64,000 nucleotides of DNA from an uncultured Allomuricauda sp. (GTDB lineage: Bacteria > Bacteroidota > Bacteroidia > Flavobacteriales > Flavobacteriaceae). Below, piece by piece: positions 22,989 to 27,385 of this stretch (position 1 is its first letter; every line of letters begins with the position of its first letter). The DNA lies in assembly GCF_947499585.1 (NCBI RefSeq), contig NZ_CANMOO010000003.1, forward strand, positions 248,001 to 312,000, given 5' to 3'. The notes beneath the pieces were generated by a model. It was given only the letters and a program-made list of their open reading frames with translations, was not told the DNA's origin and searched no databases. The translations under genes were made by a program, and so were the position numbers.

Positions 22989-23060
22989 TGGCCTATGGTG
23001 TAATTGGTAACACAGCTGGTTTTGGTCCAGTCGTTCAAGGTTCGAGTCCTTGTAGGCCAA
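22989..23060 (+). tRNA. tRNA-Gln (anticodon TTG)
   Basis: The 72-base gene has a 7-bp acceptor stem TGGCCTA / TAGGCCA with discriminator A, an anticodon arm CTGG-TTTTGGT-CCAG that gives the anticodon TTG, and the T-arm GGTTCGAGTCC. No CCA is encoded. Its 3' end and the following terminator are repeated at 27316-27365, which marks it as a likely integration target. Confidence 0.97.
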
Positions 23061-23098
23061 CAAAATGACCTCCTAAATGTGATAGTTTAGGAGGTTTT
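23049..23098. repeat. Direct repeat, left copy (tRNA-Gln 3' end plus terminator; attL-like)
   Basis: This is the copy belonging to the intact tRNA. It pairs with 27316-27365 at a constant offset of 4,267 bases and includes the exact 13-base core TAGGCCAACAAAA. Confidence 0.7.
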
Positions 23099-23100
23099 TT
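23068..23100 (+). terminator. Terminator of tRNA-Gln
   Basis: A 10-bp stem ACCTCCTAAA / TTTAGGAGGT (23068-23077 and 23086-23095), an 8-base loop and a run of six T (23095-23100) follow the tRNA by 7 bases. Confidence 0.85.
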
Positions 23101-23112
23101 ATTTTTAATTCC

Positions 23113-23576: not shown

Positions 23577-23632
23577 CTACAATATTTATATTTTAGAATT
23601 TTAAGATCAAATACTTTTTTAAAATAAGAGAT

Positions 23633-23765
23633 AACGGCTCCGTATATGAAAAGTAGCGCTAAAAAAAGCTTTAACTTTTCGGATGATACAAAAGCCAAAT
23701 TTCCAAAAAAAAACCAATCCATTGTGTTAGCAACGACTTGCGCTATTTTTTATATACAATGTAAG
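23633..23765 (-). repeat. attC-like imperfect palindrome A (after the NTF2-like gene)
   Basis: On the plus strand CGGCTCCGTATATGAAAAG-TAGCGCT at one end faces GCGCTATTTTTTATATACAA at the other, forming an imperfect inverted repeat with mismatches and unequal arm length. It lies between the NTF2-like gene's stop and the pseudogene. The outer ends are degenerate compared with site D. Confidence 0.45.
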
Positions 23766-23798
23766 CAGCAGTTATTTTTTGCTTTCACAATATATTCA

Positions 23799-24170
23799 TC
23801 ATGCTGTTTTTTTACTCAGATTTTCAGTTAGCAAAATCCATTTCCCATTTTCATTAATTAGAACTATGGTTCCAATTCCGTTTCCTTTTGTAAGATTTTT
23901 ATTGATTATTCCTTGCCAATAGAATTCAAATGCAAAAGCAGCTATAGATTCATTTTTAAGAACCCATCGTACGTTTTGTATTGAATATTCTTCGCTCTTA
24001 ATCATTGAAAAATTGTTTTCAAAGGCAATTCTAACTTTTGATTTTCCCATATGAATTGCTCCATTAGAAAAAGTAACACAGGCATTATCATGAAATAGTG
24101 GGTCAACATTTTTCCAATCTTGGGTTTTTAAGGCAGCTTCATATTCTTTTATAAAATCTTCTGGTCTCAT
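23799..24170 (-). CDS. NTF2-like / SnoaL-fold small protein
   Basis: The 123-residue protein has the pattern of the DUF4440/SnoaL group of the NTF2 superfamily: N-terminal helix FIKEYEAALKTQDWKNVDPL, FHDNACVTFSNGAIHMGKSK, and a beta-rich second half ending GTIVLINENGKWILL. No signal peptide or catalytic motif is evident. It is the last gene of the cassette-like group and stands alone between two palindromes. The function is unknown; such folds serve as small-molecule isomerases, hydrolases or binding proteins. Confidence 0.75.
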   Translation of the reverse strand: MRPEDFIKEYEAALKTQDWKNVDPLFHDNACVTFSNGAIHMGKSKVRIAFENNFSMIKSEEYSIQNVRWVLKNESIAAFAFEFYWQGIINKNLTKGNGIGTIVLINENGKWILLTENLSKKTA

Positions 24171-24179
24171 TTACTATTA

Positions 24180-24330
24180 TGTTCGATTAAGCACTTAGCC
24201 AAAACTTTTTATTTTGTTTTATCTTTTTTGTTATAAAGCCAAATCAAAAAGATTTGGCGTACTTGGTTAAAGCCCTAAACTTTGGGTTAAGTACCCAGGC
24301 CCGTATTAATTATAGCCATTGTTAGGTGCT
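24180..24330 (-). repeat. attC-like palindrome B (after the 171-aa membrane protein gene)
   Basis: Reading the minus strand, the site starts shortly after the gene's stop with ACCTAAC, which fits the integron R'' consensus RYYYAAC, followed by AATGGCTATAATTAATACGG. An internal 8-bp hairpin GCCAAATC/GATTTGGC (24238-24245, 24251-24258) and GTACTT/AAGTAC arms form further structure. The far end is poorly matched, so the site may be decayed or mosaic. Confidence 0.5.
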
Positions 24331-24334
24331 GGTT

Positions 24335-24861: not shown

Positions 24862-25157
24862 GCTTGAAGCTAACGACCTGCTAAACGCAGTTCGATGATT
24901 TCTACGGAAATATAATAAAATCGATTAACTATGAAATCGGAATTAGACTTCCTATGTCTCTGATTTTATAGTTTGTCAAGAAGACCGCGCAGCGGTTGTA
25001 TCTTGGAGATTTTATGTTATTGGGAGTATAAATTATCGGGCCAAATTGCTTTTAGCCGCTGTTGGCGCACCTCACGGATTTTTTTATTTTCCGAGAGCTT
25101 GGTTTCCCCTCGATGGGCAGTTAAAGATGCAAAGAACTAGACACGATGTTAGGCATA
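24862..25157 (-). repeat. attC-like spacer C (after the DJ-1/PfpI gene), possibly two fused sites
   Basis: On the minus strand the spacer opens 8 bases after the stop with GCCTAAC, an exact RYYYAAC core (25148-25154), and closes near GTCGTTAGCT just before the next gene. An internal CGCCAACAGCGGC element could be the start of a second site. At about 300 bases it is long for one attC, so two adjacent sites or an empty cassette are possible. No gene was found in it. Confidence 0.45.
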
Positions 25158-25161
25158 GTAC

Positions 25162-25917
25162 TTATTCTTTCCAATTTTGAAGTCGGTCGATGTACAAATA
25201 ACTTTCAACAAATTTTCTGTGTTCTGAACTGGTCATTTTTTCAAGTAAATTAAGAGCAGAAATATAGCTCGTCAAGTTTCCATTAGAGGAACTGAATTTT
25301 CCATCTTCAACAAATGTTACTAAACTGTCATTTTGAACTTTTAAATTTGGGTAATCTTTTTGGAGCTGTTTTCCCCCGCCAATATAGGTGACGATTTTAT
25401 GTCCGTCTGCAATTCCAGACTCGCCAATAAGCTGTGCTCCAGCACAATTGCTCACAATGTATTTAGTTTCTTCGTTTTTCTTTTTAATAAAATCTATCAT
25501 TTTTTCATTGCGGACTTGTGCGTACATATCATAGCCACTAGGAATAAATAGCGCTGTTAACTTTGGACAATTTTCAAATGTATAATCAGGAACAAAACGC
25601 ATGCCTTCCTCGGTTGTGATTGGTTTTTCCGTTTCCGCTATGGTGATCACATTAAAAAGTTGCTCAAAATTTTGATTAGGTTTTCCAAAAACATCTGATG
25701 TTGCGATAACCTCACCTTGTAGGACACCATTAAACATAAGAAGGCCTATTGTTGGCAATTCAGTTTTGTACGGTTTCAAGTGTTTTGTTAATGTGTCAGA
25801 TGGTGATTCTACTTGATTGGTATGCTCTGTTTTGAGCTTAGCTTTTGATTTCTCATTATTACAGCTAATAAAAATAGTTGCAAAAAATAGTGTTGAAATC
25901 ATCAATACATTTTTCAT
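25162..25917 (-). CDS. DJ-1/PfpI family lipoprotein
   Basis: The 251-residue protein has a lipoprotein leader with a lipobox ending at Cys19 (FFATIFISC). The DJ-1/PfpI (class I glutamine amidotransferase-like) domain runs from about residue 55, with the nucleophile elbow YIVSNCAGAQLIGESG (Cys158). Family members act as proteases, glyoxalases, hydratases or regulators. With an export signal and no fused HTH domain, an envelope role is likely here. It is a single gene between palindromes C and D. Confidence 0.82.
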   Translation of the reverse strand: MKNVLMISTLFFATIFISCNNEKSKAKLKTEHTNQVESPSDTLTKHLKPYKTELPTIGLLMFNGVLQGEVIATSDVFGKPNQNFEQLFNVITIAETEKPITTEEGMRFVPDYTFENCPKLTALFIPSGYDMYAQVRNEKMIDFIKKKNEETKYIVSNCAGAQLIGESGIADGHKIVTYIGGGKQLQKDYPNLKVQNDSLVTFVEDGKFSSSNGNLTSYISALNLLEKMTSSEHRKFVESYLYIDRLQNWKE

Positions 25918-26100: not shown

Positions 26101-26233
26101 CTAACGGTCTCGGCTATGATTTCGTTGTGGAATCATCCGCAGGATTATTCCGCCGAAATCCAGCCGTTTGATTTATACTTTTATTTTGGTGTGGCACAAA
26201 ACCACAATGAATTATAGCCATTGTTGTGGTTAG
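26101..26233 (-). repeat. attC-like imperfect palindrome D (best example; after the HMA-CDF transporter gene)
   Basis: The 133-base element begins CTAACGG and ends TGTGGTTAG. Inner arms GGCTATGATTTCGTTGTGG (26112-26130) and CCACAATGAATTATAGCC (26202-26219) pair along their length, but one arm is 19 bases and the other 18, leaving unpaired bases. Asymmetric bulges are a hallmark of integron attC hairpins. The element starts 12 bases beyond the stop of the upstream gene, as an attC would. Confidence 0.62.
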
Positions 26234-26244
26234 TTTTTTTTTAT

Positions 26245-27039
26245 TTATTTACTCAATTTTAAAATTCTAAATGCTCCTTGAATTACCAAAGCAAAAACGA
26301 TTGTTCCGATAATCAAATCAGGTTTATTTGAACTTAACCAATTTACCAAAATTCCTGCGATTATTACTCCCAAATTGATAATCACGTCATTTGAAGTGAA
26401 AATCATACTCGCTTTCATATGAGCCTCTTCTTTGCTTTTTGACTGTTGTAAAATGTAAAGGCAAATTCCGTTTGCAACAAGTGCAAAAATCGAAACAATA
26501 ATCATTGTTGAAAAATCAGGAAGATTCTCGTCTCCAAAAAATCTCCTTAAAACTTCCACAAATCCAATAATCGCAAGTGTTATTTGAAAATATCCAGCAA
26601 GTTTTGCAATCCGTTTTTTTCTTGTCAGAGTTCCGCCAACCGCAAAAAGACTGATTCCATAAACGAAACTGTCGGCAAGCATATCCAAACTGTCGGCAAC
26701 TAACCCCATTGATTTTGAGATTATTCCAGTTGTCATTTCGATTAGGAAAAATGCAAAGTTAATTCCGAGTACAGTCCAGAGTAGTTTTTTCTGGTTTGCG
26801 TTTTCTTTAAATTCAGTTTGGTCGGTTTTTTCGGTCGAGATTTTCTTTCCACCTAAATTAAGTTCAAGAACTGACTTTTCAATTTGGTCGATTTGTCCGC
26901 TGTGAAAAACAGTCAGTTTTCGGTTCGGAATGTCAAAGTCCAAATTTGCAATACTTGAGATTCCGTCCAATTTCATTCGGATTAGATTTTCCTCAGAAGG
27001 ACAGTCCATTTTGGTAATCTCAAATATCGTTTTGTTCAT
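26245..27039 (-). CDS. Cation transporter: degenerate HMA domain fused to CDF-like membrane domain
   Basis: Residues 1 to about 75 resemble a heavy-metal-associated domain, but its metal loop is MDCPSEE with one cysteine instead of CxxC. Residues about 85-262 form about six membrane helices of the cation diffusion facilitator type, with the acidic helix-2 site DSLDMLADS. In helix 5 the usual HxxxD is replaced by FTSND, and the cytosolic CDF C-terminal domain is absent. The likely role is divalent metal (Zn/Cd/Co-like) efflux, with altered metal choice. TTGTGG upstream and CCACAA downstream bracket the gene, as expected for one cassette. Confidence 0.8.
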   Translation of the reverse strand: MNKTIFEITKMDCPSEENLIRMKLDGISSIANLDFDIPNRKLTVFHSGQIDQIEKSVLELNLGGKKISTEKTDQTEFKENANQKKLLWTVLGINFAFFLIEMTTGIISKSMGLVADSLDMLADSFVYGISLFAVGGTLTRKKRIAKLAGYFQITLAIIGFVEVLRRFFGDENLPDFSTMIIVSIFALVANGICLYILQQSKSKEEAHMKASMIFTSNDVIINLGVIIAGILVNWLSSNKPDLIIGTIVFALVIQGAFRILKLSK

Positions 27040-27315
27040 TCACTTTTTCGTTTTTTGGACATTAACCACAACTTGTTTATATAGATGTAAAATACATCGT
27101 TATACGCCCAAATCCAATATGTAATCGATTATAAATACATTTCTTATATGCAATCTCGCTATTATTTAAAAAGGTTGATTGGATAAAGCACAGCGTAAGG
27201 AAACAAATTTAATATCTTTATTAAAGTTGCCCGTCCTTCGTTAAATTACAGACAGCTTAATGATATATAGACCTGACCATAACTGTGGTGATATCCAAAA
27301 TAAAGATGTAATCAA

Positions 27316-27365
27316 CTTATAGGCCAACAAAAAAACCTCCCAAACAAACTTGTCTAAGAGGTTTT
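27316..27365. repeat. Direct repeat, right copy (tRNA-Gln 3' remnant plus terminator; attR-like)
   Basis: CTTATAGGCCAACAAAA followed by a CCTC...GAGG hairpin repeats the tail of tRNA-Gln and its terminator, with no tRNA body upstream. The remnant supports an integration or recombination event at the tRNA. Confidence 0.65.
27333..27364. terminator. Terminator downstream of the S41 peptidase gene
   Basis: AAACCTC (27333-27339) and GAGGTTT (27358-27364) form the base of a hairpin, with T runs on both exits. It lies 22 bases past the stop of the minus-strand peptidase gene and is homologous to the tRNA-Gln terminator. Confidence 0.65.
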
Positions 27366-27385
27366 ATTTATTGACAGTGTAGGGG

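Follow-up and report, generated by a model that had tools for sequence, protein, structure and literature searches.

The window, i.e., the whole stretch of 64,000 nucleotides that was analysed, comes from an uncultured Allomuricauda sp. and carries an array in which four cassette ORFs alternate with hairpin sites, some of them decayed (Table 1). On one side the array is bordered by a tRNA gene, on the other by a decayed repeat of this tRNA's 3' end with terminator, a configuration that may correspond to an old island boundary or to a lost tandem tRNA. An Rfam search of the window returned nothing besides this tRNA. The covariance model described below hit the window twice, at sites A and D, and the window contained no recombinase.

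Table 1. Features of the cassette array in the window.
Feature	Position	Strand	Content or evidence
Decayed repeat, tRNA 3' end and terminator	27316..27372	+	74% to 23049-23105; other side of the array
Orphan attI-like site	27070..27098	-	GATGTATTTTACATC hairpin and core ATATAAACAAGTT
Intact gene cassette 1	26105..27071	-	TTGTGGTTA half-box, ORF, site A up to G
Cassette 1 ORF, 264 aa, cation efflux (CDF) family	26245..27039	-	Pfam PF01545, E 1.1e-17
attC-like site A	26101..26232	+ (read on 'bottom', non-coding strand)	cmsearch 121 bits; training-set member
Site A, R' (CTAAC)	26101..26105		
Site A, 6-nt spacer	26106..26111		
Site A, L' arm	26112..26130		followed by variable loop
Site A, L'' arm	26202..26219		
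Site A, 3-nt spacer	26220..26222		
Site A, R''	26223..26232	-	TAACCACAAC
Site A, predicted crossover G^TT (cassette 1 3' end)	26104..26105	-	crossover test; L217 copy
Second cassette ORF, DJ-1/PfpI family	25162..25917	-	Pfam PF01965, E 5.6e-14
Degenerate site region B	24870..25161	-	R''-like CTAAC at both ends; no model match; sequence reading
Third cassette ORF, 171 aa	24335..24850	-	no Pfam match
Decayed site C	24190..24334	-	left half CACCTAACAATGGCTATAATT intact (exact left-arm match), right half lost; model score 15 bits only, E 0.037
Fourth cassette ORF, SnoaL-like / DUF4440	23799..24170	-	Pfam
attC-like site D	23628..23766	+	54 bits; model-found, outside training set
tRNA gene at array 3' end	22989..23060	+	Rfam RF00005, 63.7 bits

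The original prediction described site A as an attC-like hairpin whose arms pair almost fully and differ in length by one base. Both arms were present and formed 18 bp on the + strand, including two G.T pairs, and the inequality corresponded to a single bulged T. The outer CTAAC (26101-26105) and GTTAG (26229-26233) had also been described as complementary, which they are; as the R stem of site A, this pair was dropped, since the R'' box is 26223-26232 and matches the cassette start instead. Unpaired bases had further been proposed as the mark of attC strand choice. The asymmetry does exist, but the bulge lies on the L' arm and not on the R''-L'' arm, where the extrahelical bases of canonical attC sites sit (PMC2727003), and the L' bulged base was missing from several functional relatives of site A. 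The strand asymmetry was attributed mainly to the two G.T pairs together with the 6:3 spacer. Both G.T pairs were invariant in 9/9 training sites, and the other strand has A.C mismatches at both, so that the non-coding strand is favoured.

Prediction of the single-strand fold confirmed the hairpin in part. On each strand, the fold of the 133-nt piece beat 200/200 shuffles, with z -4.5 for + and -3.9 for -. When the piece was folded in isolation, a competing inner hairpin (26111-26166) was more stable, with an MFE of -23.1 versus -17.4 kcal/mol when the long arms were forced. For the closed circle of the cassette, the long-arm fold reached -25.9 versus -26.1 kcal/mol for the best fold, a gap within 0.2, and the R box was fully paired; in the inserted site, AAC/GTT alone of R'' pairs with 26103-26105.

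Close copies of site A were found after other ORFs of the same genome, and a covariance model was built from nine sites, all of this Allomuricauda genome. The nine aligned sites shared 21 pairs with 94.7% pairing, and covariation amounted to 19 doubly changed cells, versus 6.5 in shuffles and 0 to 4 in slid versions. Nine untrained sites of the same genome were recovered at E<=1e-8, site D among them. With 16 candidates at most scored per genome, sites were detected in 170/199 Flavobacteriaceae genomes, and a draw across the phylum gave model matches in 84/395 genomes, in which most genomes of one large same-family genus had no match and served as a useful negative control. Throughout the 429 sites collected, AAC and GTT were nearly invariant (420/429 and 426/429), the unpaired central spacer was fixed at 6:3 nt, and the extra base, where present, lay on the L' arm and not on the R''-L'' arm. 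The 'bottom' strand folded better in 401/429 sites, versus 115/426 control pieces.

In integrons, a cassette begins with the 3' part of the R' that its own R'' matches. The R'' of site A and GTTGTGGTTA at 27063-27072 are exact reverse complements, which makes 26105-27071 one intact cassette. In the arrays read, cassettes likewise consisted of one ORF plus a site, bounded at G^TT, and R'' was complementary to the start half-box of its own cassette at 91.8% of variable positions, the controls being 36.6% for the own-end half-box, 36.5% for the downstream one and 39.5% for random ones. When duplicates were removed, leaving 190 unique of 380 pairs, the mean was 5.9/7 versus 2.4 in shuffles (maximum 2.8 in 1000 shuffles). 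The R box pairing spans ~10 bp with the consensus GTTRKSnnYMAT, and is longer than the canonical 7-bp box.

The cation-efflux cassette or its site was matched in 183/397 family genomes searched, belonging to many genera. In the 19 loci read, homology to cassette 1 began at GTT (27072), the predicted G^TT crossover, while the preceding sequence varied by genome and in most resembled a family site; one locus (L217) held a full-length copy matching to 26103. Copies of site A with 88-100% identity adjoined other genes in other genomes. At the sequence level, these 19 contexts with homology starting from GTT are direct evidence of cassette mobility. Two genomes of the same genus, G609 and G760, yielded no syntenic empty site, as only the cation-efflux cassette matched the window region there. 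Terminators, REP-type palindromes and other non-recombining hairpins share with these sites their palindromic character and their position 3' of genes, but this explanation has next to no probability in view of the R'' complementarity to the previous boundary across a whole cassette, the cassette copies in 19 contexts, the near-invariant GTT and the fixed 6:3 spacer.

Four genomes read over 60-100 kb contained 96, 79, 90 and 19 sites, on a single strand each, at a median interval of 627 bp. The longest ORF was co-directional with the array in 278/321 cases, and the median stop-to-site distance was 11 nt. As to cargo, 75 sampled cassette ORFs gave matches to 41 Pfam families, each in two members at most, and some ORFs matched defence models. 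The cassettes of the Allomuricauda genome itself included AbiH, TIR and HNH proteins. At another of its loci (L029:8144-11440, contig C2), the cassettes behind an orphan attI-like site encode an unknown protein of 325 aa, AbiH and a protein with a TIR domain; these are phage-defence genes as cassettes.

All four large arrays were headed by a tyrosine recombinase of 375-401 aa (roughly 390), whose gene is co-oriented with the cassettes. Twenty further loci, picked for holding the recombinase, fitted this arrangement, the exception being one contig too short for sites. At recombinase-first loci, from Mesonia, Lutibacter, Algibacter onchidii, Zunongwangia mangrovi, Flavobacterium aciduliphilum, Arundinibacter roseus and others, 43/44 site matches lay downstream on the expected strand. 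Recombinase-bearing genomes held more sites (Mann-Whitney p 3e-10, phylogenetic relatedness being ignored). Against the linkage, 84/111 genomes in which no N-extended recombinase was detected carried sites all the same, as orphans. Two genomes (G008, G128) had the N-extended recombinase and no model site; their sites may be of another type, or the contigs may be short.

The half-box of the first site was exact (10/10) in 20/29 loci, mostly 27-210 nt past the recombinase stop. It sits in a conserved attI-like core, ATATAACnAG^TT or ATATAAACAAG^TT (in general ATATAAnnAG^TT), which was also found in same-genus loci. In L122, L147, L239, L241-L243 and others, the attI core of the window immediately follows the recombinase gene. 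A different origin of these arrays was considered, in which homologous recombination between repeated sites mainly shuffles cassettes and the recombinase is a passenger. The many near-identical sites per array and the existence of duplicated cassettes agree with it, and homologous recombination could partly have spread the long similarity among sites. However, homology stops at GTT though flanking sites share little sequence, first cassettes start at an attI that differs from the sites, and the recombinase is consistently at the array 5' end, so that this scenario was judged very improbable.

The N-extended array recombinase was found neither in the window nor in the rest of its genome, whereas 10/20 same-genus genomes searched, the Allomuricauda genome itself being in the draw, had a match to this protein, in some cases spanning its core only. 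The window array is therefore an orphan. No recombinase remnants were found upstream of the window attI. Two further loci of this genome carry the attI core; in one of them (L031:2260-2290, contig C5), this third attI-like core, with a TTTTACATC-type hairpin, stands after three cassettes and not before them.

Regarding the nature of the recombinase, the best models were XerA-type (202-223 bits), and two of the four array recombinases exceeded the cut-off of 220 of NCBIfam NF040815. The integron integrase model TIGR02249 gave 186-213 bits versus a cut-off of 265, in two stretches that skipped profile positions 178-238, so that the IntI insertion was left out, and the distance from the K box to HxLRH was 58 residues versus about 100 in IntI. 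In a quick tree, IntI formed a separate clade without array proteins (SH-aLRT 99), in which the branching of the array clade relative to IntI was not fixed. A C-terminal SPLD motif is common to the array recombinase and many IntI, so a distant kinship with IntI is possible. The closest solved sequences were PDB 5hxy and 4a8e (XerA / Xer-type), and PDB 2a3v (V. cholerae IntI4 bound to attC) was the third-best sequence match (E 4e-39). The extra N-terminal part has about 95 residues, roughly 80 of which are confidently folded (pLDDT 90). It was compared with UvsW, XPB and HARP-like domains, which come from helicases acting on forked DNA; Foldseek E values of 0.1-0.3 and VIA-align Z of 6-7.6 lie below significance, and the modelled resemblance is a lead only. 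Relatives of 456-602 aa from Bacteroidales, Cytophagales and Flavobacterium (L154, L155, L156, L158, L160, L170, L173) seem to carry this domain in duplicate.

It could be argued that the window is a cassette cluster of a canonical integron that lacks an integrase (CALIN, defined by at least two attC sites with no integrase close by). In that case the sites would be divergent attC sites, and an ordinary IntI, since lost or acting in trans, would have moved them. The cassette logic, the G^TT crossover and the bottom-strand folding are all alike, and canonical IntI is frequent elsewhere in Bacteroidota (105/395 genomes). Nevertheless, the genomes positive for IntI in that search included none from Flavobacteriaceae, no model sites were found beside 12 Bacteroidota IntI genes, and the recombinase at the head of the arrays is a different one that has an attI of its own. 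In the Allomuricauda genome, no canonical IntI scored above the cut-off, Xer-like proteins only being detected. The canonical R boxes RYYYAAC and GTTRRRY fitted just 48/429 and 43/429 sites, the latter counted at R'. Hence, the comparison with known attC sites called for by the original prediction showed attC-like sites that by sequence are no canonical IntI-type attC, and the CALIN explanation was considered unlikely. The IntI insertion was absent and canonical R boxes were rare when both were tested, and for these reasons the system does not count as a canonical integron.

The designation of site A as attC-like was borne out by covariation, the arrays, the cassette boundaries, attI and the linked recombinase. 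Site A is very probably where a mobile cassette recombines, as part of an integron-like system of Flavobacteriaceae with a XerA-like recombinase. As far as sequence comparison demonstrates, this system has cassette units with G^TT boundaries, an attI-like core, recombinase-array linkage, cassette spread and better bottom-strand folding, and would thus work like an integron. In the proposed mechanism, the cassette would circularise via recombination at G^TT; in the circle, the R'' and R' boxes would pair fully and the 'bottom' strand would fold into the hairpin. The linked XerA-like tyrosine recombinase would be the catalyst and single-stranded folded DNA its substrate, which the extra N-terminal domain may help to bind. 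The folded site would be inserted into the double-stranded attI-like site just downstream of the recombinase's own gene or, alternatively, into another array site. In the Allomuricauda genome, orphan attI sites with short arrays are left over, the recombinase gene not having been found there; this absence and the decay of sites B and C are a counterpoint to the proposed reading.

More broadly, these arrays of Bacteroidota, the largest with about 100 cassettes, likely represent a second integron lineage, in which a non-IntI, XerA-like recombinase would read folded single-stranded sites through an added domain resembling branched-DNA-binding ones in place of the IntI insertion. This lineage would have an attI and a site grammar of its own, would occur in most Flavobacteriaceae and would be missing from current integron surveys. 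In Bacteroidetes, IntegronFinder 2.0 reported integrases that lack cassettes and a single complete integron, that of Salinibacter ruber (PMC9024848). The canonical IntI genes above cut-off (L124-L135) in the phylum, outside Flavobacteriaceae, exceed the picture given by the integron surveys consulted. No earlier description of such arrays was found in the open-access literature (preprints and most subscription journals were outside this scope), and the view that the system is undescribed rests on that literature and on the IntegronFinder 2.0 distribution. If this lineage is real, its presence in most sampled members of a family of abundant marine and soil bacteria would change the known extent of cassette-based gene exchange and open a large cargo pool that includes defence genes. 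The additional catalytic-domain insertion of IntI has been considered defining for integrons (PMC2426708) and termed essential (PMC8138268); its need in folded-site recombination would become testable.

Compared with known systems, the arrays resemble sedentary chromosomal integrons, or superintegrons, in their small cassettes of one ORF with a 3' palindromic site, the G^TT boundary, the half-box at the cassette start, the better folding of the bottom strand, the tyrosine recombinase and attI at the head, and a cargo mostly unknown with toxins, defence and metal-resistance genes. Unlike in superintegrons, the recombinase lies outside the IntI clade, lacks the IntI insertion and has an extra N-terminal domain; its gene is co-directional with the cassettes and attI lies past its stop codon; and the sites have an R box of about 10 bp, a 6:3 spacer and the extra base on the L' arm. 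As in canonical integrons, the first cassette starts at an attI by the recombinase, although the attI position differs. The window and other loci of its genome resemble CALINs in having sites and cassettes without an integrase, but the window keeps an attI-like site, and its sites differ from the canonical type of attC. For XerA, the target is dif. The array recombinase is closest to XerA and Xer-type proteins among solved sequences and NCBIfam models, yet it differs from XerA by its N-terminal extension and its linkage to cassette arrays, whereas with V. cholerae IntI4 it shares the C-terminal SPLD motif but not the K box-HxLRH spacing.
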